NCBI GenBank assembly: GCA_963920765.1
Contig: OY987249.1
Location: 6,864,188 to 6,928,187 of the forward strand
DNA: 64,000 nucleotides
Direction of reading: 5' to 3'
DNA from: Ulota crispa
Lineage: Eukaryota > Streptophyta > Bryopsida > Orthotrichales > Orthotrichaceae
The position numbers were made by a program, and so were the translations under genes. Shown here piece by piece: positions 14,001-50,491 of this stretch. Within the stretch, counting starts at the first letter, position 1; every line of letters starts with the position of its first letter. The notes below the pieces were generated by a model. It was not told the origin of the DNA, did no database searches, and worked only from the letters and a program-made list of their open reading frames with translations.

Positions 14001-15079
14001 GGTAGGCGCACTCATAAGCGTGGAAATAAGGGTTATTGGAGTAGGTAAAACAATTGACTAGCTTTGAAAAAAATGCTGTATGTTAGGATAAGGAAATCAA
14101 AAATATTGGCATCAATTTCAAGGTTCCAACTCCAAATATTTGTCCACAAAGATTTTTCAAAGTCCAAAATTACTGAAATTGTAAGAACCATGAGTAAGAG
14201 ATGTTAATCACAAGGCTTGTTGGTTTTTAAATAGTGAGATGGGTACTCAAAACCTCATGCTAGTCACCCACAACCATAACCATCACTTAGTCATCCACAA
14301 CCATTTGTTTTTTTTATTGATTAGCCTTGTCACTGTCAAGTGACAGGCATGGGGACGCAACGCTTATGGATGCTGCTACCTTACATGAATTCCTGACCAT
14401 TCAAGGCCGGGCCACACAGGCCAGAATTGCTAGTTCAAACCAACAATTTGTAAAAAATAGGTGGCGGTTCTTACACGTTTGTGAAAAAGTAGATTCTTTA
14501 ACTTTCAAGGGCTCACTTTTCTAGTCTATACACTGACAAAATTGCTAGTTTTGAGAATTCACAAACTGCCCCATCTCAAACCTCCTGCACTAGAATGGTG
14601 GAGAGGTTATCTTTAAGTGAACAATAGATGAAAGTTTGGAAAGTAGCTATCTCCCAATTTTCCAAAAATACAAGTTACTTCTTATCTATTCCAAATTGCC
14701 AGTTTTGTGGCTATGTGGCCCCGGACAGTGTTTGGGAATTTTTTTGAATTTCACCAGCTACAAACGGACAACCAATTTTTTGCTTGACAGTGCTGGATCT
14801 TTTTCTAAATTTACATACTAAGGTACTATATTTAGAATTTTTGGTAAAATTCAATCAATTTTTTGCCGACAATTTCAAATGCAACCGATTTATTTCCCAA
14901 CTCCACCGACTAACAATGAACTAGCAGCCAGTTTTTCCCGCACATTGGCCCTGGCATCAGTAGCAGAAATGTGATCGCCGCAGAATCGCAGGTTCCACTT
15001 CAATCAAAATGACTTCACTTACCGAACACCGACGCAGGAATCCGACGCAGGAATCGTTGTAGCGTCGTCGTCAGCCGCG

Positions 15080-18000
15080 ATGACGAGTCACACGCCGCTC
15101 TGTTCCTATTGTACTCTTCACAATCCTTGCAGCCTTTCCACTAAGTCGCATCACAACACTCACGTCAGCTCCTCGACATCGTTAAGTTCGCCATGGACGA
15201 CATCGTTGTCGCTACAATTTTCTCTTCGCCAGGAGCTGAGAAGGCGCACGATTCAGAGCACTCGGAGGTTATCTGGATCACGACCACCTCGCTCGTATGA
15301 TTCAGTCGCCGTGAGCTCCAGTCCTCAATTCGGTATGTGCTATCACTCATCTATCTATACTTATCTATACTACTAAGTGGGAAGATTTCTCAAAGTGCGC
15401 CCTTTTCTAAAATTTTCTAGAATTTTTTGTTGTAAGTTTGAAGTAATAAAGGACACCCAACACCAAGTGCCCAATAACCATGTCCATTTTCAAAATTTTG
15501 TAGAACTTTTTGTTTATACTACTAAGTGGGAGGATTTCTCTAAGTGCGCCTTTTTCGAGAACCTTTTAGAAATTTTTGTTGTAAGTTTGAAGTAACAAAG
15601 GACGCCCAAGACATATAACATCAAGTGCCCTACAACCATGTCCATTTCCAAAATTCTGTAGAACTTTTTGGTGGAAGTTGAAATAAGAAAGGATGCCCCA
15701 AATATAAAACACCAAACGCCCGCCAACCATTTGCTAAAAATTAATAAAATGCCAAGCGCCTCCTAGCAAAATATAAAAGAGTAGCATTGTGGTGAAAGCA
15801 ATTGGTATTTTTAGTTTCAAAAAAGGACCAATATGATAGTGCATGTGAATTAGATTCTACATCAATTGTGAGATATTGATTTCTTGTATTTGTATAGTAC
15901 ATCAAGATTAGATTTTAGACCAATTGATTTGTGGGGATATCAATTTTTTGTAAAATTGAATGTTGCATTACTCATACATGTCCTACTCACGCAAAGCGTG
16001 TGCCATGAATTTTGAAAACTTTGTTTCGGAATGAAATTCTGAGACGTCCGTTGGTGCGCAAGTTTAGGGTTGGTTCAGAGTGAAGTGGAGAGGACGAGGA
16101 AGCAGATCTTTGAGGACGGGTTTGCCATTTTCCCAGGATTGTGGAGCAAGGCGGAAGTGGACGAGGTTGATGATGATGATGTGTTGGTAGTAACTCAAGA
16201 GCAAGAGAAGGTGTTGAAATCGTTCTTGATGGATCCTGTTGATGTCTTTTCTCAGCATCAGCAATGGCTGCACGCTCCAGGACATCGATGCACTGATGCC
16301 GCCACTTCGCCTGAACCGTATTGGCATCATTCTTGGCAGGTGCGTGTCCTCTGATGTTTTGAAACCCTAGATCATCAAACTCTAAACCTGAGCGTTTCTA
16401 AATTGACTGCTGAGCTGACCGTTTTGACGGATATTACGAGGCCGAGTGTTTTATGTCTTTGGATGCATAACATACAGATTCAAAACAAGTATAAGGTAGT
16501 ATGCTCTAAATGCAACAAACGTGCCATAGGTAGCTCATGAATGGACATGAAGTGGTCCTTGAAGTAATAGAAAAAAAGGTGTATTTTATTGCAAGAGTCA
16601 ATCACATTTCTTGGTTTCTCCTCTCTCTTTACACTTTACAAGTTGTCACGGGACAGTTTATGAAGGGTTTAGAGTCACAAAAAATTTGAAAAATCATCAA
16701 TAAATTGATTATGCTTCAAAAAAATATGAAAAAAATTGTGTTACATTTGCCATCCCTTTTCTCTTTGCCTGAAAATTAGACAAAAAACCTTCATGTCGTG
16801 GAAGCCCATGAAAAGGCAAATCAGCCCTTAAAGTGACAATTTTCGAGCATACTACCTTAGTAAGTATAAATTTAAACTTCGTGGTAGAATCTAACGAGGA
16901 CATGGTGATGCTTTTGTTAGATGGCTGGCATAGAGGGTGAAACTTTACAGAGACCGTCTTGGAGTGCAACTCTTGTTGTGTCTCTCTCAGGTTTGTGATC
17001 AGGCCAAACTCGTCCGTGCATCAAATTCTAAGATGGCCTTGATTTTAATACTACCTGCATTCAGTGTTTAGTGTGTGGATTATGACGGTTAACCCTAAAT
17101 GGAACCAGGATTCGTGGTTTGAAATGACCAATTCAGCACTTTTGATGACACCATAATCACCAGAATTAGTGAAGAATGTTTCATGTACTGGTCGGCAAAA
17201 ATACAAATACTGAATAAAAAAAGGTGCTTGTATGACCTAATAAAGATTTCTAATATAACCAGTACGCACAATGTGGGGTTTTTTATTCCTTTAGGGGTTA
17301 AAGGAGCATGTGATGGTTAATACAATGAAGGTTGGGCACAGTGCAGATCAGACCGCTAAGACGTTTTGTGGAGGAGTGGCAGTGTTTCCGAGAAGTCATT
17401 GGATTATGAATGACAAGATTGCGGATTCTATTTCTGACCGATCGTCATTTCCACAACCTTATGACGTACCTGCTGCTGCTCCCATGGAAGTATTGTTGCT
17501 AAACCCCCTGCCAATTTTTATTATGATTTTCCAACTGAGCTTTGAATGGATTAGGGAGCGTCAGTAGTGGAGCCAAAACGCATTTGTTTGAAACGATCTT
17601 AACCCCTTAAGGATGTTGTTGTTTTGTATACGCTCTTTCGTGTTGTATACGGATGGGGCACTTGTGTAGCACATGAATTCCATTAGAGCTATAAATTTCA
17701 ATCCAAGTCAGACATATTACTGGTCAGCTAGAAATTTTTGGGGGATTTTTGGCATTTGTCATAATGCCATTTCTTCAAGTACTAAATCGTCTTTATATGA
17801 ATATAGCCAACACTTTTGGTAGGCAATATCCTTAAGGGGCTAATGTAGTTGAACTGAGAATCATGTGGTTATTCCTGCTTTTCTATAGAAGCATCATTTT
17901 ATCTTTTTGTTTTTGAGTGATGCAGCTGAGACTTGCGTGTGGAGATATGGTGTTGCTCCACCCATTGTTAGCATACACTATTGCACCGAATGCTTCTTCA

Positions 18001-21000
18001 TCTTCGACCCGATTGCTTGTGTTTCATCTAGGGGATGCAACATCAAATCAAGTCAAATCAAGGTTGATCTTAGTTCTCAAAGATTCTCTCTCTCACACTG
18101 TCTAGCATTTGGTGGTCACATAAACCTTAGATAGGCATTTCTTTTATATGAGAAAAGTAGAAACATTGTTATGAAGCAACGTGCGTTTTTTGCAATGTCA
18201 TCCCGTTCTACTGTTAGAATCTTTAAGATTGCATATACTTTGCTTCTAATTTGGATATGAAGAAGTAAACAATCGGTCACCCTCTTTCCTATATATTGGA
18301 TGGTCTTTTTGTGCAAAAATCACATGATGAAGCTTCATACCATCGTACAATTTTTCATAAATTTGGTGTCTGAATAGTTGTAGTGTAGTGGTTACCTTTT
18401 GCGAATACTTTGCGAAGTGTAGTCTGTGTTGGAAAAGATTACAAGAAGTTGGAACTGTTTCCTAGAAGTGCAGAATTGGCGAGGAGAAGCACATGTGGAG
18501 CGGGTGGCACTCAATGGAAAATTTCTTGATGGATCGAACTACTAGTGTTGAAGAGGAGATGGTGCAGTTGCAGATTGAAGAGGGAAAAGCACAACTTGGT
18601 GGCTGGCACGCTACTATGGAAGGCTTGCCAAGTGGCCAAGAGAGTTTAGCAACTAGTCCGAGTACCCGAACTGCACCTCGAGATCTTCTAGCTTGGCACC
18701 TCCGAAACTCCGCTCTCCAATTTATGCAAGGTGAGGACGTCAAAGTGGTTTGAAGTTATTTCTTCAGTGTTTACGCAAGACTTGAGAACTATATATGTAT
18801 ACAAGTATACTGCACCTGTGTGTGACTTTTCTATGTTAATTTTCACCTGCCCTTTCCCTACCTTTTCCTCTCCCTCCCCCTTCCCTTCCAATAGAGAGTT
18901 TCAAACTTATGATGCTTTAAAATATTAAATTTGAAAAATGTAATGATTTTTCTCAATTCCAATGACTTTTCACCTTCCAATTAGGTGCCTTTTCTTCTCC
19001 CTTTGTGACGTTTCACCACCTTTTTCCTCTCCTTTCCCTCTCTCTATTAGAACTTGTGGTGTTAATAGAAAATTATGGCATGACACGTCATTATATCATG
19101 AGACATGAGATAGAAACATATGATAAGACAGCCTTTATAATATAGATTCTCTTTGTCTCATAATAAGTGGCCCATTGGAAACTTGTGTTCTTCTCAATAA
19201 TTTTGAGTAGATTGTATGGAGGGTTATTAGGCCCAATTTTAAAGTAGGTTGCAAGGAACACATACAATTGTTCATCACTATTTGATATAATATTTGGGCG
19301 CTTATAAATAATTTATTTTATATTATGACCGATGAAATTGGAATAAGAAGACATGAGGATCCAATGGGCCACTTATTGCTAGACAAAGAGAGTATATATT
19401 TAACTGGAATATTACAGATGGAGAATGGAGTAATGGCCTAAGTATGCTGCAGCGGCGAGCAGGACTACGCCCAGCTTGTTACTGGACAGCACTTCAGGTG
19501 CAAGCACCAGTCCCCTTGAACTCATTTGAACCAACATCATGTGCAACTAAGAGTGAGGGAACAAGCTTTTTAATAATCCACATGCAATTGTATGCAACTG
19601 TAATGTAGTTGAGGTAACGATTCTTGAGGTAACTTGAAACCTTGTGATGTCAAGTTGATTTTTGAGTATGCCACATAGAAGCCATGTAAACGCCAGCCAC
19701 CTCTTCATGCTCATTATTGTTACTCACACTATTGTAAGACCAACATTGAACGAAGCAGAATGAATTAACAATGATTTCTACAACAACCAAGGTGCAGAAT
19801 TTCTTGTTGTCTGAATCTGTGCAATGTAAAGTGGTCCTTACATGACCTTCTAGCTTAAGTTCACGGGCCAGTCTTTGTTAAAATCTTTCTGCTCACGCAG
19901 CTTTTCTTCTCAAAACAAGAATGTAAGGTTGGCAAATTGAGCTTGCTTCTTTCAATTACAGATGGATTTCCTTACTAGTTTGGTTTCTCTTTTGAGCATG
20001 AAGGACATATCTCAGTTGTAGTTTACAAGCAAGTCATTACAAGTCATACGGTTCCGTTAAGTTCGAATTTCTATTCGTCAATAGATTTTTTATTTTATTT
20101 GTAGGATGTGCTTGAAATTCTTCAGCTTGCTTTATATAACTAGGCAAAATGTTGTGTCCATCAGGCAGGTCGGTGTTGCATGAAAAGCGCCCCAGCAAGC
20201 CAACTACGTGGCCGAGCAGGTCGAAAGTGCACGTTGGAAGATGGTGAGAGGTTCCTGCTTCGAGCCATTGAGGTAACCTGCCTAATGCACTACCTCCACA
20301 TGCTTGTATGTTAACAAATAATTGGCAAAAAAGCTCCTTAACATGTTATTCATTAAATTGGGAAAAAGCTTCCATATTGGGACTTTTCATTTTTAAGAGT
20401 TTTTAGTTGATTTAGAGTGAATATTATGATGATTTAATCAAGACTTTACATCAACAATGAAATATCTTACAGGAATTATCAAAAAAACTCACTTCAAATC
20501 ACCAAAATATTCTCACAAATGCAACATTTAGCATTCCCAAAATACGTTTTGGGAAAGCGCTTTTTCCCAAACTAATGAATAATGCGTTCCTTGGTTTTTC
20601 CTTTAACTTCTTTACCAAGAACCGAAGTTGCAACAAGATTCCTTTCCAACTCTTCCACCTTTATTCCACATTTAACTAAATCTTGACAGTCCAAAGTCCA
20701 AATTCTGAAAAATCACGCAGTTATATTAGAAGTCCAGAGCTCAAGATTTGAAATACCATTCAAAAATTCTACAACTTTTGTTGATCTGTGCTTTTTTTAT
20801 AAATTGTATGGGGAGATCTTTCAGTAGAAGTCTAATCCGTGCTTAGAGAGTTTAGCTTTAGAGAATGTGCCATGCCTTTGCCATGTTCAAGTAATTTCAA
20901 ACTATGAAGGCAAATCTAAACTATACATACTTTCATAAATAAATATGCGATATTTTGCACTGAAATTGAGAAACAGACTCTGATTGATTCCATGTATATT

Positions 21001-21402
21001 ATTTATTTTTGACTTGCGTGGTTATAAACTGCACGACAGATGGCACCTGGCTGGCCACTTGCATATGCTGAACTGATGAGGTGTCTGGCACTCATGGTGA
21101 GTGTTGTTTCGCATTTTAATGTATTGTGGAGCTCATTTTAGTTGTTTAGACACAACACGCTAGTTTTATATATTCTATTTTCTCAAGTAAGGAATATTTT
21201 TAAATGATTTTACATAATTGTTGACATGACATGTGGATGGGCATGTCAGGGACGAGGAAGGGAACAAGAGATTCCTAGAGTGATGGAGTTGATGAAACAT
21301 CGTTGCAAGTTGGAGCAATTGTGCCTTCGATATCCAACGGATTCCGAGATATTACAGACTTGCTGGAATGATTGTGAAGCTCTTTGCCACAAATTCTTGT
21401 AA
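15080..21402 (+). CDS. PhyH-like (2OG-oxygenase fold) protein with TPR-like C-terminus
   Basis: Exons joining in phase: 15080-15332, 16068-16339, 17295-17489, 17926-18062, 18474-18730, 19418-19497, 20165-20272, 21040-21096 and 21250-21402, about 503 aa. A further exon at 16951-16990 (reading GVQLLLCLSQ) is likely, and the segment just before it is unresolved. The first 84 residues are Ser/Thr/Arg-rich without acidic residues early on, as in a plastid transit peptide. Residues 85-110 (FEDGFAIFPGLWS) match the start of phytanoyl-CoA dioxygenase-like proteins. GGVAVFPRSHW and CGDMVLLHPLLAYTIAPN match the later core strands, but the position of the distal iron-binding His reads Tyr (LAY rather than LAH). 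No HxD pair was found in the resolved exons, so it may be catalytically inactive. The C-terminal 180 residues contain TPR-like helices (GERFLLRAIEMAPGWPLAYA). Function unknown. Confidence 0.6.
15361..16010. mobile_element. Possible degenerate Helitron-like segment with tandem repeats (intron 1)
   Basis: Starts TCTATACTACTAAGTGGG, similar to plant Helitron 5' ends. A unit of about 155 bp is repeated imperfectly from about 15364 to 15690 (shared AAGTGGGA(A/G)GATTTCTC, GTTGTAAGTTTGAAGTAA and AACCATGTCCATTT). Near 15988 there is a short hairpin, CACGCAAAGCGTG, reminiscent of the Helitron 3' hairpin, but no CTAG-like end follows it. The assignment is tentative; the tandem repeat itself is certain. 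Confidence 0.4.
16494..16857. mobile_element. AGGTAGTATGCTC-ended, TA-flanked MITE
   Basis: 364 bp with inverted ends AGGTAGTATGCTC and GAGCATACTACCT, flanked by TA (16492-16493 and 16858-16859). It lies in the unresolved part of the PhyH-like gene. If the element and one TA are removed, the flanks form TATA|GTAAGTATAA, a near-perfect splice donor, so it may have landed at an exon edge. Confidence 0.78.
17089..17301. mobile_element. TTAA-flanked element at the 5' edge of the third resolved PhyH-gene exon
   Basis: Runs from TTAACCCTAAATGGAACC to TTCCTTTAGGGGTTAA, 213 bp. Its right terminal repeat contains CCTTTAG, the best candidate splice acceptor for the exon starting at 17295, so the first two codons of that exon would be transposon-derived. 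A second acceptor in the same phase exists just outside the element (TTAAAG|GAG). Confidence 0.7.
17599..17843. mobile_element. TTAA-type element between PhyH-gene exons
   Basis: Left end TTAACCCCTTAAGGATGTTG, right end CAATATCCTTAAGGGGCTAA, about 245 bp. The right terminal TTAA has decayed to CTAA. It lies in the intron between the exons ending at 17489 and starting at 17926. Confidence 0.65.
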
Positions 21403-22365
21403 CTGTGAAAAGTTTTTCTCGAAATGACCACCTTGAGTATCATGATTTAAGGTATGTACACTTGAGAGCATCCAAATGAGCAGAAAAGTTGGGTCTGGGG
21501 CCGTGACCCCCTATATAGCTTCAAGAGATCTTCAAGGAGAATTGAGCATATGAGAGCAAGTTGCCTCATCTCTTGTTGGTAATCAAACAAGGATTTAAAG
21601 GCATCTTGTGCATGTGTTGTTTGGACATTGTTTGAATAAAGTATAAACTTATATTAGTATTGATCAAGGGTGTGTCTCTTACCATCGTCAGATCAATTGT
21701 TTTAGGCAAGAACTTTTAAGCTTTGCTTATGGATAAGGGTTGCATTTACGTTTAGTTCACTCATGTGGGACTTCAAGGAATGCAACATAAATTTCCATGT
21801 TATTTGTTTTTAGCAAAGCAATGCAATGCAGCAACAAATGAGACAAGAAAGTGAATTAGTCTGAAAGTTTGGAACTATCGAGTACATTGACAAGATTTTT
21901 TACATTGCTTTTTAGGACATGTTCAAATATTCAAGTTAGCATCGTAACTTTTGCAAACATTTTGTTGAATTTGAGAGATGTCTTAAATTCTATGCACCCT
22001 AGCCAAGATTCTTGACTTCTAGCCACATGCTTTGCATTTTGCTTTTCAAATATTTTTTTGAGTGTTGCTTTACAATGAAAAAGCAAGGTTGAGGTTTTGA
22101 TGTTGTAGAAAGATGAGGGGAGAGGCCAATATAAAATAAAATCTCAAAGTTTTGGCCCTTTTGTTGGTTTTCATGGAAATCTAGGTTTTGCTAGTTTGTT
22201 GGCTTTCTTTGAAGATCAAGAGGACTTTTAATCCCCAATTTTGACAAACCCTCTATCCTATTCAATCTTGACTTCCACTATTAAGCAAGCCTAGCCCAAG
22301 AACATGAAAACTACTCATGGAGGCAAAATATGCAAGAAAACCATCAATGGTGAACAATAATCTCC
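21403..22365. other. Intergenic DNA, nothing recognised
   Basis: Includes the presumed 3' UTR and terminator region of the PhyH-like gene. No ORF, inverted repeat or known motif stood out. Confidence 0.5.
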
Positions 22366-23212: not shown

Positions 23213-25270
23213 CTATTGATTAATTTTCTCCACTGTTGTTAACCAATTAGGTTGATATATCCCATTTATTACAATATTCTTTATTACATTTGTTTCTAAT
23301 GTTCCTTGAGAAGGTAAGCGGACTAGCTTCCATCGTGTTAGGTATACATCATAAATTACAAAAAAAAGTTGAGATAAGCTTACTCTAAATGCAATCAAAT
23401 CACCATTGCTATAAACCTCATATTTTATAAAGCCCTTTTGAAGCGGATTATTGAATAATTTGTATAAATATGTCACAGGCATAATACCATTTACAACAAG
23501 AGAAAATTTTCCATTAGGAGTACCATCTTCATTCAATATGACTTCTATAAGAACAAGTGGATTATCCTTATCACATATACTTAGTGTTGCTTCACGAGTT
23601 ATTGCATATATTTTATCATTTGCTACTTTAACAAGTTTAGGTGCTTCTGGGATCCTTATGTTTCCTAAACCATATAATAAAAACTTACATTTCAATTGTT
23701 GGTGCCTCTTCCCTCTACAATTAATGTAAAAAATAGATGGTACTTCATCATCCATGTATTTTGTTGGAGAAGGTATCAGTTGTAATCCTCCAAAATAAAT
23801 CCCGTAGTTTAAAATTACACAATTTCCACATCCTCTTTTATTTTGAAAATGATTAGTTTTGGCATTTTCAACATGATCAATCATTTTCCATGCCTTATCA
23901 ATAGAGCTATATGTTGCAACATTGACAATGTGTATAGGTCGCATTTTTGGTGCTTCTTTTCCATTTTTTATTGCATGCCTAGTTTTATAATTTGATTTTG
24001 GCTCAACTTTCTCACATCCAAGAATAAAAAGTTGATAGTTTTGATCTTTTGAGTTTGAAAAGCTCAAATTTCCAAACTTTTCTTTAAATATTGAATGCGG
24101 AAGAGGTGGTAAAAATAAGTATTCATGTGTCAAAGGATTTACAATGGTAAGCAAGCTTTGGTTTTTCTCTTCTATACTAGGATGTTTATTTTCAGTTTCA
24201 TAAACTACCCATCTATGATTTATGAAAATTCTAGCAATTGCTGGACTTTCACTATCTAAAACTAATAGTCCGTTATTTGCAGCAATTATTTTTGTAATAA
24301 TATCAGACTCTATCCATCTCAAAGATGGCATTAAAGTCCATCCTTGTTCATTGTACTTTTTACCAATGTCATTTACATCATTGTTGTTTTTATAATCAAA
24401 AGCTACAATTTCATTTGTTGATGTTAAAACAACAGGAAAGTATTTATTGTATACTTTTGAAACACTATCCATATACATTAGAGGATTCCAAATTTTTGCA
24501 TTTGTATCAAACATATTTTTTTTACTTCCTACAATATTCCAAGCTTCTAAAAGCTGTGACTCAGAAAACATATGCATGCAAAGACCAATCAAATGTGGAT
24601 TAGTCATGTCCCTCCATTGTCGTGGTATGGGTTTATTCAAATAAGTTAATGCAATGTTTGTTAATTTAGAGTCTGAACGAACTTGTTGCTTATTGTTGCT
24701 TGTAAGTATTAAACTAGAATCCACTCTAAAAGGTTTATTATTAACAGTGCCTTTAAGAATTCTACTCATTGCCATACTTTGAGCATTTGCATTTTTTTGT
24801 GTCACATCCGATTTACTCCATCCTACCTTTTTTATTCTAAAATTTTTCACCTTGATTAACAAATTTTTGGCATGAGTTACTTTTGATCTTATTGTTTCCA
24901 AATATGCTACGTTTTCACAAGTTGGTGTATTTGTTTCAATTTCATGAGTCATATTGTTTTGAGCATTAGCTTGAGAGAGATCCATGCATTGATCTTCATC
25001 CAAAACATAACCATCACTTTTACTTTTGTGAGATGGTAAAGATTTTTCAATAGTTTTGGGACTTTGTAGAAGTTCAAGCCCAAAGGTGTTACTACTATCT
25101 ATGAATGTAGGATCAAAAAGTTCAACAATATTAGAAGTAGAATTAAAATAATTGTCTCCTATTTCATATGGTGTTCTTGTATCATCTAGGTCTTGCCCTA
25201 AATTTGCATCTGTTATTTCTCCTATTGTTCCACTATCTATGTCAATTTCATTCAATTCACACATCAACAT
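23213..25270 (-). CDS. F-box-associated / beta-propeller-like protein (intronless ORF)
   Basis: A single uninterrupted 685-codon frame, very AT-rich and rich in Asn, Lys and Ile. Residues 1-200 look disordered, with a basic patch near 130-155 (VKNFRIKKVGWSK). Residues about 212-260 (PRQWRDMTNPHLIGLCMHM, then LEAWNIV) resemble a degenerate F-box. Then come GLLVLDSESP (334-343) and TIVNPLTHEYLFLPPLP (375-391), the typical 'NP(L/A)T..(F/Y)..LPPLP' signature of plant F-box-associated beta-propellers, and further propeller-like strands (VNVATYSSIDKAWKMI). If so, it would be a substrate adaptor of an SCF ubiquitin ligase; this is inference. The first 14 bases overlap the end of the upstream ORF in another frame. 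Confidence 0.5.
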   Translation of the reverse strand: MLMCELNEIDIDSGTIGEITDANLGQDLDDTRTPYEIGDNYFNSTSNIVELFDPTFIDSSNTFGLELLQSPKTIEKSLPSHKSKSDGYVLDEDQCMDLSQANAQNNMTHEIETNTPTCENVAYLETIRSKVTHAKNLLIKVKNFRIKKVGWSKSDVTQKNANAQSMAMSRILKGTVNNKPFRVDSSLILTSNNKQQVRSDSKLTNIALTYLNKPIPRQWRDMTNPHLIGLCMHMFSESQLLEAWNIVGSKKNMFDTNAKIWNPLMYMDSVSKVYNKYFPVVLTSTNEIVAFDYKNNNDVNDIGKKYNEQGWTLMPSLRWIESDIITKIIAANNGLLVLDSESPAIARIFINHRWVVYETENKHPSIEEKNQSLLTIVNPLTHEYLFLPPLPHSIFKEKFGNLSFSNSKDQNYQLFILGCEKVEPKSNYKTRHAIKNGKEAPKMRPIHIVNVATYSSIDKAWKMIDHVENAKTNHFQNKRGCGNCVILNYGIYFGGLQLIPSPTKYMDDEVPSIFYINCRGKRHQQLKCKFLLYGLGNIRIPEAPKLVKVANDKIYAITREATLSICDKDNPLVLIEVILNEDGTPNGKFSLVVNGIMPVTYLYKLFNNPLQKGFIKYEVYSNGDLIAFRVSLSQLFFVIYDVYLTRWKLVRLPSQGTLETNVIKNIVINGIYQPNWLTTVEKINQ

Positions 25271-26423
25271 AGGTTTTGCAATCTAATGATCTAATTGAGT
25301 CCATGTTTGACCCATTTAAACCAAAATGCAACAATGTATCAAAATCCAAATTTGATGTATATGGGTTGAAAACATTCAATACATCCATTTTATGAATGTT
25401 TGATATATGCAAATCAAAAATTGATGTACCTAAATCAAAATGTGATATATCAATATCATCAAGTGAAGGAAAGTTTTTCACATTGCCAAATTCATTTATT
25501 GAATGTTCATGATTTCTACTAGAATCATCTATTGGAGAACTAGGCCGTTGAGAGGGCGATCCAAAAAATGAGTGGTTAGGTGCTACCATATTCAACTCCA
25601 TTACTTCATCATCATCTTCCTCCATATTTATAGGGACATCTAGTGTTCTACTAGTCACCCCAAAAATCGTATTAAGAATGTCTTTAGGCCGAGGTAAATT
25701 GTTGAGACCTTGTTTGTCAATGGTTTTTTTTTTCAAATCTCTTGGTTTATTTTTGTAGATTGATGTATTAGATCTATCAAAGCGATTTTCTCTTCTACTT
25801 GAACGAAGTTTGCGTGGAACACAACTAACTCCATATTGAGAACGGTCATTTCGAGAATCTAATTGCATTTCATCTATAGTACTAGTTAATAATTGAGAAC
25901 GTGTTGTATTAGAGTTGTGTTCATTAGTAAGATCAATTGTTTCATTATTTGTGTTGTGTTCTTGTTGGTGTTGATTTACTCTTCCATGTTCATTTCTAAT
26001 ATTATTTTCTAAAAGATCAAGATTACCAAAATTAACAAGACCAAGATTAGCAAGTCTTAAATTTGGCGATCCTTCATGAGGTGTCTTACAAGAACCATAT
26101 TCATTGATAAAATTAGTTGTTTCGTTGTTTTTTCTAAACAAAGGTAGGCGTTGCCTATTGGTTCTTTCATTTTCTTGTTTATTTTTTCTTTCATTTTCTT
26201 GTGTATTTTTCATTATACTTTCTACAAAACTGAGGCTAAAGGGACTCAAAGGACCAGGGTCACTAAGTCCTATTACATTATTTTCAATTGTAGGAAAAGG
26301 ATCAACTTCTAAATTCTCAATAAGATCATCTTCAAGTCTAACTACATTATCTTCAACTCTAGAAAAAGGATCTTCCTCTGAACCATTAGAAAGGCCATCC
26401 ACATCTTGCAAAACGTGTTCCAT
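25257..26423 (-). CDS. Asn-rich, acidic, probably disordered protein, 388 aa, unknown
   Basis: Frame read from the ATG at 26423; the open frame extends slightly further upstream without an ATG. The first part is acidic (EEDPFSRVEDNVV), followed by a charged Asn/Lys/Arg-rich region. A basic nuclear-localisation-like segment (RKLRSSRRENR, then KPRDLKKK) is near residues 208-245, and an acidic stretch MEEDDDEVMELN lies beyond it. No family recognised. It ends within the first codons of the next ORF (overlap ATGTTGATGTGTGA), with the same extreme AT composition and residue bias. The two may therefore be parts of one gene separated by a frame change or an unannotated short intron, or a true overlapping pair. 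Confidence 0.4.
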   Translation of the reverse strand: MEHVLQDVDGLSNGSEEDPFSRVEDNVVRLEDDLIENLEVDPFPTIENNVIGLSDPGPLSPFSLSFVESIMKNTQENERKNKQENERTNRQRLPLFRKNNETTNFINEYGSCKTPHEGSPNLRLANLGLVNFGNLDLLENNIRNEHGRVNQHQQEHNTNNETIDLTNEHNSNTTRSQLLTSTIDEMQLDSRNDRSQYGVSCVPRKLRSSRRENRFDRSNTSIYKNKPRDLKKKTIDKQGLNNLPRPKDILNTIFGVTSRTLDVPINMEEDDDEVMELNMVAPNHSFFGSPSQRPSSPIDDSSRNHEHSINEFGNVKNFPSLDDIDISHFDLGTSIFDLHISNIHKMDVLNVFNPYTSNLDFDTLLHFGLNGSNMDSIRSLDCKTYVDV

Positions 26424-29400
26424 GACTATCCTATAATCTATACTACACTTGATACTATCAAAACAAAAACACACATATTCTTTTTATAAATGACATTTGT
26501 CAATTAGTTTGTTTTGTTTTTTGAATTATTTAGTAAGTTAGACTAACAAAATACAAACACTCAATACCTAATCAAGTTTACAATTAGTTATCTAAGTTAT
26601 GGATTAGTTTCTTTTATTACTTTTATGATTGACAATTTCAAATTTTGTCTTAATTTCGAGTCCTAAAAAAATTCAGCATGAGTATGAAATTCAAGAGTAA
26701 TAGTTTAAGAACAGAAGAAAATTAAAGATTATTGCCACGTAAAAAGTAAGAAAAGAAATAATAAAAAGCAGCTGTGTTTTTTTAAAATTTAGTTTGATTT
26801 TCTTTTCATGTGTGTAATCAACTAAATCAAGTTTTTGATCTTCTATCTCATACAAAAATAATAATAACAGTCTAATCCAAATTTGGTGAGATTCAAGTCT
26901 CTAATTATTAATACCAAAAATCAATAATAAAACATCACAATTAAATATAGATTGAAATTTTCAGATTTGTGATAGCTATGGTTAGTTTTATATCAAGAAC
27001 ACCCTTTGCATATTATCATTCAAATACTGACGTACATGCAACAAAATTTGTGGATTGCTCAAAATTCATTGGATTTATATATGTTAATGCTATTAAAGTC
27101 TCTATCAATATGATTACATGGTTGAAAGAAATTTTATGTTTTTCATTTGTTGTACACGATAACAAATAAACTTACTACCGTCAATTTTCTAAACTCTTAA
27201 GAACATTATTCTAAGATTTGGATACTGCAATAATAACTTAAAAGTTTTTTCAATAAAAAGAACAACCAAAATTCTCTCTAGACTAAAATCCTAAGCCGTT
27301 AATCATCCTTATTTACACAACTTTAGTCCTAATCTTGAAGTGTTTACAAATGATATGAATATAAGCAATTTGATTCACTTCATCTTTACATTTAACACAT
27401 TTTTTTTTAATATTTAATTTTTTGATGTTTAAGAATGTAGTTCTCAAAAACACCATGAAACTACTCTTGTTTTGTTTTTACGAGAATTTTATGTGAATTC
27501 TTTAAAGTCACGGTGTTCAAGATACCATGTTATTGTAACTTTATCTGTTAGGTAAACCACCTTTAATTCTTGCCTTATGATATAGCTTTATAATGTTTTC
27601 AATTGTATCCACATTCTGCTTCACTGATTAAATTTCTATTCTTTTGTAGAAGCTAAATAATTGAGCAAAACTCTTTTAGAAGTTGTTACATATGAAAATT
27701 ATCAATATACCTATATTATAAAGTGTTGGTTGTCTATCATAATGTTCAAAGACGTAATATTCAAAGTTCTCTATTAGCATGAGAAGTTCAAAATTCTCTA
27801 TTGTAAAGAATTGGGTGTCTATACGTCACTCAAAATTTGAAACTTCAAGGGAGGGAAAGGAAAAGGTGGAGAAAGGGAGGGTGAAAAGTCACCTCAAAAG
27901 TCACCAACATGGTGTAAAGCACTTGAAAGGCATATATGTAAAGAATAATCACAAGTTGAAATAGGCTATTATGTTAAAACAATTGAACAACCATGACTTT
28001 TCATAAATTTTCCTATTTTTGACAAATCTTGTAGATAACATATTATCAAGGACTTCATTAGCCTCCTTCAATTCATTGTGTGCATATTGAAAATTTAATC
28101 ATCATTTCTTTAGAATTATCTATCACAAAATTTTAAAGTATCATAAATTTATGAAAAATAAATAGATTAAAAATTTGAAACATAAAATTATCATATAAAA
28201 CTAGAATTATCATCAAAAAGAAAAATTTGTTGTGTACATTGTCAAAACATCTCATGTACTAAGAACCTTTATAACATTTTAAACACACAATAAATTGTTA
28301 TAAACAATATAAATCTCAATTTACATGAAATTTAAGAATAGGTCACCAAAAGTTGTGCTAGATTTTTGATAATGATCAAGTCAAGCTAATCACAATGGAT
28401 CAGTTACTTGGTATTTTTTGTATTGAAAACTAATTAGGGTTTACGCATTTATTTGATGGTTAAACGTAATTACATTCATCTATGAACTATGAAGAGATCC
28501 CTTCCAAAGAAGTGACTCACTCTTCCTTTTTCACTTTAATTTGAATACTCTTTCTATTGCTACCATGTGATAGTTGGTTATTATGTAAGAAGGGTATGAT
28601 CAAGGAGCTCTTTGTAGCCAAAGTGTTATGTTGTTAGATTGGTACCAAGTATCATTTTAAGGCTTGATTTCTAATTACAAAGTCATAAAGTTGGAAAATG
28701 AGACTACTTATAGGATACTAGGATGTACCACCTAGTTGATACTAATACTCAAGTATGGTAGAAGTCACAATCCTAGCACAATCTTTGTGTTAGAATTAGC
28801 TAATGGGAATTGCTATATGCACCACATCCTTTTAACTATTCTACCACACCAACTACATATGGCCAAGCATATGGCAAGTATTTATGATAGTATAGTAGGT
28901 CTAAACCACTAACAAAACTCTAAATTGAAAATACAACCTAACATAGAATCTACAATTTTCAACTCTAGATCCCGCTTATTGTATAGATTAAAAGATCTAA
29001 ATTAGGCTAAGTTTAATTTAGATTTTTTGATTGATACTATGAGCAAGATCTAGAGTTGAAAAACAAGACTGAAGTTAAAATTGATATGTCAAGTTCCACA
29101 CCCATGACCACACAATTTCACAAATGAGCATGCAATACAATTGTCAAAAAGCTACAACCTAATACAAAGAATTTTTTAATTCCAATTATTGACCGAGAAT
29201 CATTATGAGGGAAAGAAAATTCATTTGTGAATGACTTCTAATTTGTATAACAAAGACATTCCAAATGAAATTAGCCCAAAAACACATTTAGATTTTATAA
29301 ATGATGAAAATTCAATAGAAGGGCCCTAACTACCTAAGGGAGTGCCCAAGGGAGATCTTCACTTTAATCTCAACTTGTGTTTCATGTTTTTCCAATGTGG

Positions 29401-35672: not shown

Positions 35673-36839
35673 GGCTCGTAGAACTCGAGTTAAGCTTCTG
35701 TCAGCTGCAGTAAGAAAGTCCTTTTCCCACAAGAGATTCTAAAGTGACAGGCACTGAGTGTCCTATTACTAAACTAACACGAATTTGCTATAAATCCAGC
35801 ACCCAACTGTAGTTCTGACTCTCTAGGGTTGTCCGAACTCCTCGAATCATCGCTTGTTGCGTGTCTTGTAGTAACGTTTGAGTGTAGAAGTACGAACATC
35901 GCAACAAAAAACACCAAGTTAGGTTGACTACGGCACTCAACGAAAGCTCTGAGGATGGATCCCGAGCTCACAGGGGGGTCGCACTTCCCTTCTTTGCTAC
36001 TTCATTGAAATCAAATACTGCAAACCCTAATCCAAAGTTTACCACTCTGTCCACATCTTTCAAACTCCGAATATGCAGAAGCAAAAGCAGAGTTTGCTAC
36101 GAAACTCGACACTAATAAGATAGTACAACAAATACACGTGCTGGAAGGACTTGAAAAAGAATGTTTGACAAAACAGCACCACGTTTCGTACGAGCTGACG
36201 TGTCGGAGCACTTTTTGCAGTATTATCGGCTTCTTCTTTAGAAACATTATCTTATTCACCAGAACCTCCGAAGTCCGAACGCATCCCAAAGGCTTCGAAA
36301 GGCTTGTTGTGCAGGGTTAAGTACGATCCAACGGAAACGAAGAGGGTCGGTGAATCAGGACGCGAAGTACCAGCATCATCATCAAACCCTAATTCGTGGA
36401 GAGGATATGTCTAGGTAGTGAAACCTTACACTCCAGTTTTGCAAATACGAATTTTTGCTAGTTCGGCTCAGTTGCCCGTGTGACGCTGGCGTGTCGAGCT
36501 TGGTATTGGAGTTACCAACTACGTGAGGGATCACAAGCGGATTTCAAGAAATGTTGTACTCTTTAGGGTTTGAGGCAGAGACGAAACCCTAAACTTAGAC
36601 GTGAAGCGTTCGGGGCACGTAGAATGGAATTGTCGAGAAACTAGTTCGCAATGTTGCACTCTACAGTCTACAGCGTTCGACGCAAGCCCCGAGCTATCAA
36701 CGAATCGAGGAATCAGAAGTGGATTTCAAGAAACGTTGTATTCGTTAGGGTTTGAGGCAGAGACTAAACCCTCAACTTGGACATGAACGGTTCAAACTTT
36801 GAAGCACGTAGAATGGAATTTTCGAGAAACTAGTTTGCA
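35673..36839. promoter_or_regulatory. Divergent promoter region between NPF (-) and PPR (+) genes
   Basis: About 1.17 kb separate the two start codons. AAACCCTAA telo-box motifs occur at 36022-36030, 36384-36392 and 36584-36592; such boxes are common upstream of plant genes for translation and organelle biogenesis. The PPR-proximal part contains a tandem duplication: about 36525-36686 is repeated at 36702-36870 (shared GGATTTCAAGAAA, GGGTTTGAGGCAGAGAC, CACGTAGAATGGAATT and CAGCGTTCGACGCAAG). The second copy includes the chosen PPR start. Confidence 0.6.
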
Positions 36840-39800
36840 ATGTTGCACTCTACAGCGTTCGACGCAAGAACGAAGCCCTATTTATTCTCATTTGTGCAAG
36901 AATACCATCCGAATCGTCCCGTCCAGCGTCACGTCGTTGCTATCCGGTGTGAATCTGACAACGGGGATTCAAGACGACAACACGGCGTGCTTTTGAGACA
37001 TGACGAGATTAAGAAATTAGTGACGCAAGAGGAGATGGCCACGACGATGGCCAGAGTGCCGGCCAAGTACAAGAAGCGGCAGTTCAGCGAGCACGAGCAG
37101 GTGTGGAGCCCTCGCGAAGTGGTGGCCAAGCTGCTGCCTCTCAATCACTGGGATGACTTCGACGCCGTTCTGAACTCCTGGCTCGGCCGCTTCAACCGCA
37201 AAAATTTCCCCGCCCTCATCGCGGTACTTCTCCTTCCAACTACTCCTCTCTCCTTCCGTTCCTAAACCCTAAACCTTAAAGCTAATTCTACCTTGAGCAG
37301 GAATCTCCACCCGACACCTTGTTTTGCACAGTTGCTCTGATCTTAGCAAGACTTTGCTGTAAACTATGTATTTGTGAAAACATTACGTTGACATATGTAA
37401 TTTTCTTTTGAAAGGGAAAACTTGATGAATGCCTCTGAAGTTTGCAATGTTTGTACATATGTCCTTGGTTTTTCAGTTCCTAAACCCTAACCCTAAAACC
37501 AATCTCTGCCTTGAGCAGGAATCTCCAGCCGACACCTTGTTTTGCACAGTTGCTCTGATCTTAGCAAGACTTTGCTCTAAACTTTACATTTGTGAAAACA
37601 TCACGTTGAAATATGCCATTTTCTTTAAAAGGGAAAATTTGATGGATACCTTTGAAGTTTGCGATATTTGTACATATGCCCTTGGTTTTTCAGAAACTGC
37701 ACAACCATAAAATTTTAGGTGTTTGTTCTGTTTTGCATGTCACTTCCTTCTCCCTTTGTGCACACGCTGCTTCTTTCCCCTGTTCTGTTGCATTCCCTAC
37801 TTCAACATTGGTCATGAAGGAAGTGGTGTGCACAATAGAACAAATGCTTGAAAATTATGGTTCGAGGGTATTTGTGCAATTTCTGGAAAAAACCAGGGGC
37901 ATTTATACAAACATTGCAAACGGCATGGGAATCCATCAAATTTTCCCTTCGTTTTTTAAGGCCAACCAAACCTCATGCTACACCAATGGATTAGGTTCCT
38001 TATGTACAATGTAACTTTCTATGTAACTTTCTATTACTGCTTTTTCATGAATTGCCATGGAAGTTTGAACTTGTTCATGGCAATGTTACATTATATCTTG
38101 TTAACAACATATAGTGTAATTTGACAATTGCATGTCAACATCCATTGCCATCCACTAGCAATGGAGGACATTGAGTGTAGTGTGTACTTGTCACCATAGT
38201 TGTCATGTTGGATCACCCCAAATTGCCTGTCCGTCTAGCACAAATGCAAACAATCAATGTATAGATGCCGGCATTCTTTTATAGTTGTGTCAATGACGCA
38301 ACCTTGCATCAGCGTCTACGCTCCCGAGCATGGACTACTGCTCACTTGTCTTGTCCTTTGGCCTAAACTCGCCCAAAGTAACAACCGTACTTGTCACTGA
38401 CATTCTAAGAGAATTCTTAAGCTGGAATGCTATGTTTGCTGAAAACACAGGAAATGACTAGAACAGGAGCGTTAGAGCACAGCCTGCGGGTGTTCAACTG
38501 GGTGAAGAACCAGAAATGCTACCGAGCTCGAACCGACATCTACAACTGCATGATTTGGTTGCACGCCAGGCACCAACGTGCCGAGCACGCACGGGGTCTC
38601 TTTTACGAGATGGAGGAATGGAGGTCAGGTAACTTTGCAGCTGTTTTTTCTTAACAGAGTTAACAAAACCATACAAGATGTTTTTTGAGCTGAACTTATT
38701 GTTTTATCACATGCACTGTTCTTTGCTGATTCTCGTGATATAAAATTTGGCCCTCTTGTGAGTTATATTTTGTACAAATATCGGCTTAAAAATCTTGATT
38801 GGGGTGGGTTGGAGGTCAGGTAACTTTGCAGCTGTTATTTCTTAGCAAAGTTAACAAAGCTATATAAAGATCTTTTTAAAGCTTAACTTTGTGTTTTATC
38901 ACATGCACTGTTCTTTGCTGATTCTGGTGATCTAAAACTTGGCCCCCTTGTGAATTATATTTTCGTACAAATATCGGTTTTAAAAATCTTGATTGGGGTG
39001 GATTGGTGGTACAATCAGGTGCAAGCCGAATGTGGAGACTTACAATGCGTTGATGAACGTGCATGGACGAGCTGGGCAATGGCGTTGGGCTCTGCAAATC
39101 TTTGATGACATGCAACGAGCTTGCGTAAGCCCCTCTTTTTTCCAATCTTCTACTCAACGTCACCTTTTTCCTTCTAGAGGTTTCTAGAAAAACCTACACT
39201 TGGCAAGCTTTGTTGTAAGTATTGCGTTACAATTGTCAAGGTTATAGTGCAATTAGCTGTTCTAGAACGTCTTTGAAGTTGGGTTCTCTACTAGGACAAA
39301 AGCATCGGCTTTTGCTCCCTATCAACACGAAACTTTGATCAAGGAATCAGGTTTATAAAACGGCCAATTCAATTGTTAGTATTCCGAAAAATATTACGTC
39401 TCAAGAACATTGCAAGTTTTAGTCCAAAAGGAGAGAAAATTGGACAGAAGGAAGTCCCCATATGGCTTACTCAAATCCTTTAAATAACTACCAGTTTGGG
39501 CCTGGGGAGGGTTAAGTCACAGTTATGTGAGGGTGTTAGTGTCTACTGCCACGGTCTAACAGAGTTGGAAGGCATTGCAAAAGTATCTCATAACTCAGAA
39601 TCTGCAAAACTACGACACTTATTAGCCATTTTTCGTAGATTTTTCTAGATCCTTCAACAATCCTTGTAGCAACCAATTGTTTGGAACTTTGTGTTTACCT
39701 TTTTTGACAGTTTCTGTTGCAAATCGTACATCTCTGGTTAGTCACTTTCAATAGCTAGTATACTGAAAGTAGTAAAAACTTTTCTGCTGTAGACAGTTGG

Positions 39801-49695: not shown

Positions 49696-50491
49696 TTAAC
49701 CCCTAAAGGACCAACGGTCTCCATGGGGGACAAATGGATTTTAGGCATGTACCTACAACAAATCTATTTTTTGTGATTTTTTGAAACTTTTATTAAAGGT
49801 GTGGAATTCAAATATCTACGTTGGCATCTAATTTTTTCTTTGTTCTAAGATTTATTGAAGAAGTTAAACATGAATTTCCAAAAACGGGCAAGATTGGGCA
49901 GCCCAAAATTTTCTTTAAAGCTTGCATTTNNNNNNNNNNNNNNNNNNNNNNNNNNNNNNNNNNNNNNNNNNNNNNNNNNNNNNNNNNNNNNNNNNNNNNN
50001 NNNNNNNNNNNNNNNNNNNNNNNNNNNNNNNNNNNNNNNNNNNNNNNNNNNNNNNNNNNNNNNNNNNNNNNNNNNNNNNNNNNNNNNNNNNNNNNNNNNN
50101 NNNNNNNNNNNNNNNNNNNNNNNNNNNNNTAGACTTATATATACATAAAGAGCTTTGAATAATTCAATTTTCATTGATGAGATGAAAATTGAATGATTCA
50201 AAGCTCTTTATGTATATATAAGTCTAAAGGACCTATTTCATATTTTTATTTTTTTTAAATGCAAATTTGAAAGAAATTTTTGGGGTGCCCAATCTCGTCC
50301 GTTTTCTAGAAATTCATTTTAACTTCTTCAATAAACGTCAAAATGAAGAAAAAATTAAATGCCCACATAAATCTTTGAATTCCCCATCATCCATAAAATT
50401 TTCAAAAAATCACATAAAGTAGTTTAGCCATAGGTACATGCCCAAAATCCCATTTGTTCCCCAAAAGGAGGCTTGGTCCTTTAGGGGTTAA
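49696..50491. mobile_element. TTAA-flanked foldback element with assembly gap in its centre
   Basis: Ends TTAACCCCTAAAGGACCAA and GGTCCTTTAGGGGTTAA. The 230 bp at the left (to the gap) are the complement of the right end, so the arms run the whole way to the gap. A second, perfect hairpin (50130-50225, AGACTTATATATACATAAAG and complement) sits just inside the right arm. It shares its right TTAA with the next element. Confidence 0.82.
49930..50129. other. Assembly gap (200 N)
   Basis: A run of exactly 200 N, probably a placeholder of arbitrary length. It lies at the turn of a long palindrome, where short-read assembly and sequencing often fail. All reading frames across it are meaningless. 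Confidence 0.97.

Follow-up and report, generated by a model that had tools for sequence, protein, structure and literature searches.

We observed that a gene at 15080-21402 of the window (the whole 64,000-nucleotide stretch of Ulota crispa DNA analysed here) carries a PhyH-type oxygenase domain in which, by alignment, two of the three iron ligands are replaced. Our leading reading, held with about even confidence, is that this nuclear plant gene encodes a degenerate PhyH domain with a helical tail, most likely serving as a non-catalytic binding module. The predicted 509-residue product would begin with a basic, Ser/Thr-rich presequence, followed by the domain of PhyH type and then by a tail that is helical and TPR-like, and comparison with its relatives suggests that this PhyH-derived protein is probably not an ordinary enzyme.

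Structure of the gene

The gene forms an open structure of 10 exons and 9 GT-AG introns on the plus strand, with every join in phase. Splicing yields an open reading frame of 1,530 bases, made up of 509 codons plus the stop, and neither an internal stop codon nor a frameshift interrupts it. A sequence-only reading of the same DNA had placed the start at 15080 and the stop at the end of 21402 and had joined the exons in phase; the open reading frame agreed with both ends, and the phase was kept at all nine joins. Exon 1 (15080..15332) supplies the start codon and a Ser/Thr/Arg-rich N-terminus (residues 1-84), and was placed by open frame, phase and composition. Exon 10 (21250..21402) supplies the C-terminus and the stop codon, and a possible poly(A) signal, AATAAA, lies on the same strand at 21635..21640, 233 bases past the stop.

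We further estimated codon bias in the coding frame. With a small training set (1,320 codons), it was positive in exons 2-7 and 9, and negative in exon 1 (-3.9), in exon 10 (-3.2) and, slightly, in exon 8 (-0.5), with a sum of 18.3. The model is least secure at its start and in its last exons, since the codon bias is negative there. By a rough splice matrix, the acceptors of exons 2, 4 and 9 are weak, as is the donor of exon 4. As far as tested the gene appears single-copy, as an 87-residue query from exons 4-5 matched only its own gene genome-wide (E<=0.001).

Two features near the start of the gene were also seen. A short upstream ATG frame, found by eye at 15009-15062 in a different frame from the gene, overlaps a tandem 13-mer, CCGACGCAGGAAT, at 15029-15055. 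Intron 1 contains two near-identical segments (CTACTAAGTGGGA[A/G]GATTTCTC...) at about 15360-15680, again noted by eye.

Relationship to the PhyH family

When the family libraries were searched directly, the protein was not recognised. Pfam gave no match at E<=10 for the 509-residue protein or for two domain pieces, in a search where the HMMER filters drop most weak matches, and one sub-threshold hit, DUF3764 (E 0.43), was obtained with exons 1-2. The NCBIfam and PHROGs searches with the protein recognised no family, the oxygenase part found no match in a PDB sequence search, and the viral contigs and genome contigs searched with the protein yielded no relative. Plasmid searches with the protein or its parts returned 4 records each, none of them significant (best E 4 and 2).

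A bridging query, which was a bacterial consensus, found 7 relatives on plasmids, and the 7-sequence plasmid profile matched the plant protein at 42.7 bits. A profile of 7 relatives placed human phytanoyl-CoA dioxygenase (2a1x) first among 46 PDB sequences, at E 2.7e-10. A genome profile scan gave at least 593 pattern matches, of which 327 were confirmed and the best 80 of the 327 were kept. The PhyH profile was made from all 80 kept loci and the 7 plasmid relatives, that is, from 87 prokaryotic PhyH-type proteins; the 80 include one 144-residue fragment (L064) and one locus that entered with an over-long upstream part (L003). Against this profile the plant protein scored 50.6 bits, and the best of 2,000 shuffles reached 6.3; with L003 trimmed the corresponding values were 49.8 and 6.6. 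Five of the 87 relatives were tested against the Pfam PhyH (PF05721) cut-off, and all five passed it.

These scores indicate that the domain descends from PhyH oxygenases. The sequence-only reading had proposed this ancestry on the strength of three PhyH-like words, and all three are present (FEDGFAIFPG and GGVAVFPRSHW among them). As regards membership of PF05721, the family HMM does not match the protein, and the homology to established members was found with the 87-relative profile. Most of the signal comes from residues 187-312 (exons 3-6), and the FEDGFAIFPG stretch contributes 2.5 bits.

The likeness to PhyH (PF05721, human 2a1x and the bacterial 'phytanoyl-CoA dioxygenase family protein') is homology at the profile level, strongest in the C-terminal half of the domain. 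The plant protein shares the G..PxSH, GD....H....N and final W motifs and the first His of HxD. However, it has Ser for the Asp and Tyr for the distal His, it falls below Pfam detection, and a presequence and a helical tail have been added.

Of the 45 columns that show conservation in 80% or more of the relatives, the plant protein keeps 19. Apart from the ligands, the altered positions include the Asn, which is now G208, the Gly of PGxH, which is now R214, and the second Arg. These changes, along with the weak splice signals at exons 2, 4 and 9 and the negative codon bias of exons 1, 8 and 10, would suit a decaying gene, in which an ordinary plant PhyH enzyme has its catalytic residues drifting under relaxed selection and the frame is intact by chance or because the decay is recent. 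However, ten exons are joined through GT-AG introns throughout without a stop or a frameshift, and the fold-level motifs (G102, G207, P213, H216, G252-D253, N268 and W300) are kept. We consider decay unlikely.

The iron site

The three columns of the triad (H, D and H), which bind the iron in the PhyH family, are each present in 87/87 relatives, a count that overstates the invariance of the family because both the motif and the seed used to pick these relatives were canonical, with the best 80 matches kept, so that unusual bacterial members could be missed. In the plant protein the same columns hold His171, Ser173 (in WHHS) and Tyr263 (in LAYTIAPN), and the PF05721 triad HxD...H is thus changed at two of its three ligands. 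Exon 2 (16068..16339) encodes the N-terminal PhyH part with FEDGFAIFPG and ends in YWHHSWQ, the HxD position, where H171 is kept and S173 stands for the Asp. Exon 5 (17926..18062) encodes CGDMVLLHPLLAYTIAPN, with Tyr263 (codon TAC) for the distal His, and Arg275 near the 2OG position.

The distance from H171 to the LSD strand is 27 residues (21-29 in the relatives), and that from H171 to Tyr263 is 92 (84-102 in the relatives). The placement of HxD rests on the MAFFT alignment and on this spacing, since the local profile match begins only at residue 187. The residue that follows Ser173 is Trp, where Gly is usual (83/87 relatives). A 'CTD' in exon 2, suggested by one BLAST pairing as the HxD site, was rejected, its spacing of 39 being outside 21-29.

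We then evaluated 792 splice models, in which exons 2 and 4 were separated by no more than a single exon and the starts of exons 1 and 2 were fixed. None of the 792 had an HxD/E 20-45 residues ahead of AVFPRSHW, and the codon of Tyr263 in exon 5 was altered by none of them. The Tyr at the distal position, on which the sequence-only reading had remarked, was confirmed against a His in every relative. That reading had also found no HxD pair, and none was seen within that range in any model; however, the site is not simply absent, as it aligns with H171-H172-S173, with the first His kept and the Asp replaced by Ser. The loss of iron ligands is thus larger than had been claimed, extending by alignment to two of the three.

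Four further genes found in this genome (L090, L091, L092/L094 and L093/L095) belong by Pfam to PhyH, the family of the domain described here, but the HxD (as HQD or HND) and the distal His are kept in 4/4 of them, with the triads read by eye from single exons. In L093/L095 (G000:C4), the PhyH match continues across a single TAG, which may mark an intron, and contains WHND and the distal His.

The Arg that follows the distal His is the residue that binds 2OG. The first Arg from +9 on is found at +11 in 81/87 relatives, at +12 in 2 and at +9 in 4, and Arg275 of the plant protein stands at +12 from the distal position. In the MAFFT alignment it is Thr274, not Arg275, that falls in the Arg column, which is off by one. 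Arg275 could, from its position, be the 2OG Arg. The second invariant Arg (87/87 relatives) is His in the plant protein.

Since H171 is kept and an Arg is found at +12, as in 2/87 relatives, the protein might also be a working 2OG oxygenase, with H171 as the sole protein ligand of the iron, water filling the shell and the tail holding the substrate, in the manner of AspH (aspartate/asparagine beta-hydroxylase). We presume kinship between AspH and the plant protein no further than the oxygenase superfamily, and we take the H725A variant of AspH, in which the first His is kept, to be the nearer analogue. AspH also combines a 2OG oxygenase domain with TPR and lacks the carboxylate ligand (PMC8252765, PMC12816917), and its TPR domain aids substrate binding (PMC12816917). 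With one His, as in H725A and H679A, AspH is still active (PMC8252765). However, these one-His cases are engineered, and H725A is the less active of the two, its turnover having been below 5% when first assayed; the Km for 2OG is up ~100-fold (H679A) to 200-fold (H725A) (PMC8252765). Native AspH, moreover, keeps two His and has its TPR at the N-terminus, the reverse of the domain order seen here, and the plant protein has Trp after Ser173 where most relatives have Gly. A one-His enzyme is, on these grounds, quite unlikely. UTX/KDM6A likewise joins TPR to a 2OG oxygenase domain (PMC12816917), but its domain is JmjC rather than PhyH, its TPR is N-terminal and it is catalytic.

Splicing around the catalytic region

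The gap between 16340 and 17294, in which the sequence-only reading had left the exons to be fixed, contains an exon that was missed there. This exon 3 (16921..16990) encodes MAGIEGETLQRPSWSATLVVSLS, the strand preceding the G..PxSH motif, and was placed by its phase and by the PhyH profile score. Exon 4 (17347..17489; DQTAKTFCGGVAVFPRSHW...) most probably starts at 17347 and not at the rival acceptor 17295, and GLKEHVMVNTMKVGHSA would then be intron. The donor of exon 3 at 16990 (WSATLVVSLS frame) is in phase with the acceptor at 17347 and out of phase with that at 17295. On the PhyH profile, exon 3 with 17347 gave 52.0 bits, and the model that skips exon 3 and uses 17295 gave 45.8 (6.2 lower).

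Other models were examined and rejected. When RVKLYRDRLGVQLLLCLSQ was taken as the frame of exon 3, the score on the PhyH profile was 46.0 bits against 52.0. Eight splice models scored up to 1.2 bits higher; their exon-2 donors at 16180-16210 lose the WHHS segment, and an HxD/E was found in none of them.

It could be that the catalytic stretch is wrongly modelled, with exon 3 skipped, with exon 4 starting from 17295, or with the ligands in an unrecognised exon. The rough splice matrix points this way, scoring the acceptor at 17295 at 4.6 and that at 17347 at -1.5, and splicing exon 2 straight to 17295 keeps the phase. However, exon 3 with 17347 gains its 6.2 bits on the PhyH profile and fits the spacing of the family, the HxD/E is missing from the range searched in all 792 models, and the Tyr belongs to exon 5, an exon that the models leave untouched. 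We regard such an error as distinctly unlikely. An isoform that skips exon 3 would be in phase and is possible.

The tail and the N-terminus

The PhyH domain ends within exon 6 (18474..18730), which carries W300, a residue conserved across 84/87 relatives, and the same exon runs on into a linker and the predicted helical tail. Since exon 6 holds the PhyH end and continues into the tail without a break in phase, a single transcript for the PhyH part and the tail is favoured. Two genes with separate transcripts would fit the lack of Pfam support for the tail and the negative codon bias of exons 8 and 10, but with the domain end and the linker in one exon, and the phase kept at each of the five junctions that link exons 5 to 10, this is very improbable.

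The tail continues through exon 7 (19418..19497; DGEWSNGLSMLQRRAGLRP), exon 8 (20165..20272; ending in LEDGERFLLRAIE) and exon 9 (21040..21096; MAPGWPLAYAELMRCLALM), each of TPR-like appearance. The residues from DGEW to GLRP, along with MAPGWPLAYAELMRCLALMG, fit the TPR pattern by eye. The TPR-like tail of the sequence-only reading stood up only weakly. Pfam gave no match to the tail at E<=10, and its TPR model was likewise unmatched by the whole protein. A single TPR consensus scored 0.6 bits on the tail, a value reached by 201/5,000 shuffled tails. A TPR consensus run against the PDB gave, among the alignments listed, only engineered repeats, and it was set aside. In the PDB, the best matches of the tail were to the OGT TPR domain, in three registers at E 0.36, which is not significant, and unrelated chains followed at E 0.78. 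The tail may thus be called weakly TPR-like.

The N-terminal 84 residues include 32 Ser/Thr, 9 K/R and 2 acidic residues. A transit-like N-terminus had been claimed, and it agrees with these figures by composition only; the presequence would be compatible with plastid or mitochondrial import, the two not being separated. Among the matches listed in the open-licence literature, there was no plant protein combining PhyH and TPR.

Possible function

The ordinary Fe(II)/2OG cycle requires the iron triad. With the Asp and the distal His lost, the normal cycle would most likely be impossible, and a binding role is argued because two of the iron ligands are gone. In the non-catalytic binding module that we favour, a small acid or a peptide may sit in the former active-site pocket, where one His and perhaps the 2OG Arg remain, and the tail would bind a protein partner in an organelle. 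The scaffold role and the plastid location put forward by the sequence-only reading are inferences. The same reading had called the protein a pseudo-oxygenase. This is likely in view of the two lost ligands, but it is not compelled, since the first His is kept, an Arg stands near the 2OG position, and the engineered one-His variants of AspH do work (PMC8252765). That the protein is a natural Fe(II)/2OG oxygenase working on one His ligand with a tail-held substrate, and so does in nature what the one-His AspH does by design, seems improbable.

If orthologues share the Ser and Tyr replacements, the gene would represent a pseudo-oxygenase of PhyH descent in a plant, extended by a helical tail, and would offer a clean test of the reuse of the oxygenase fold without a metal, or of one His sufficing in nature. 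If orthologues retain the triad, the loss would be lineage-specific and of minor interest.

Genomic setting

The genome is of 275 Mb in 157 contigs. Open frames near the gene match the PC-esterase, POT/PTR, PPR and proteasomal-ATPase families, which fits the gene content of a plant. On the minus strand, two adjoining open frames at 23213-25282 and 25257-26483 (689 and 408 residues), overlapping by 26 bases, had no Pfam match at E<=0.001. A run of N at about 49930-50130, either a gap or a withheld stretch, appears as X in the frames of both strands. Tandem duplications, both imperfect, are found at 36525-36868 (about 182 bases) and 38615-39010 (about 192 bases).
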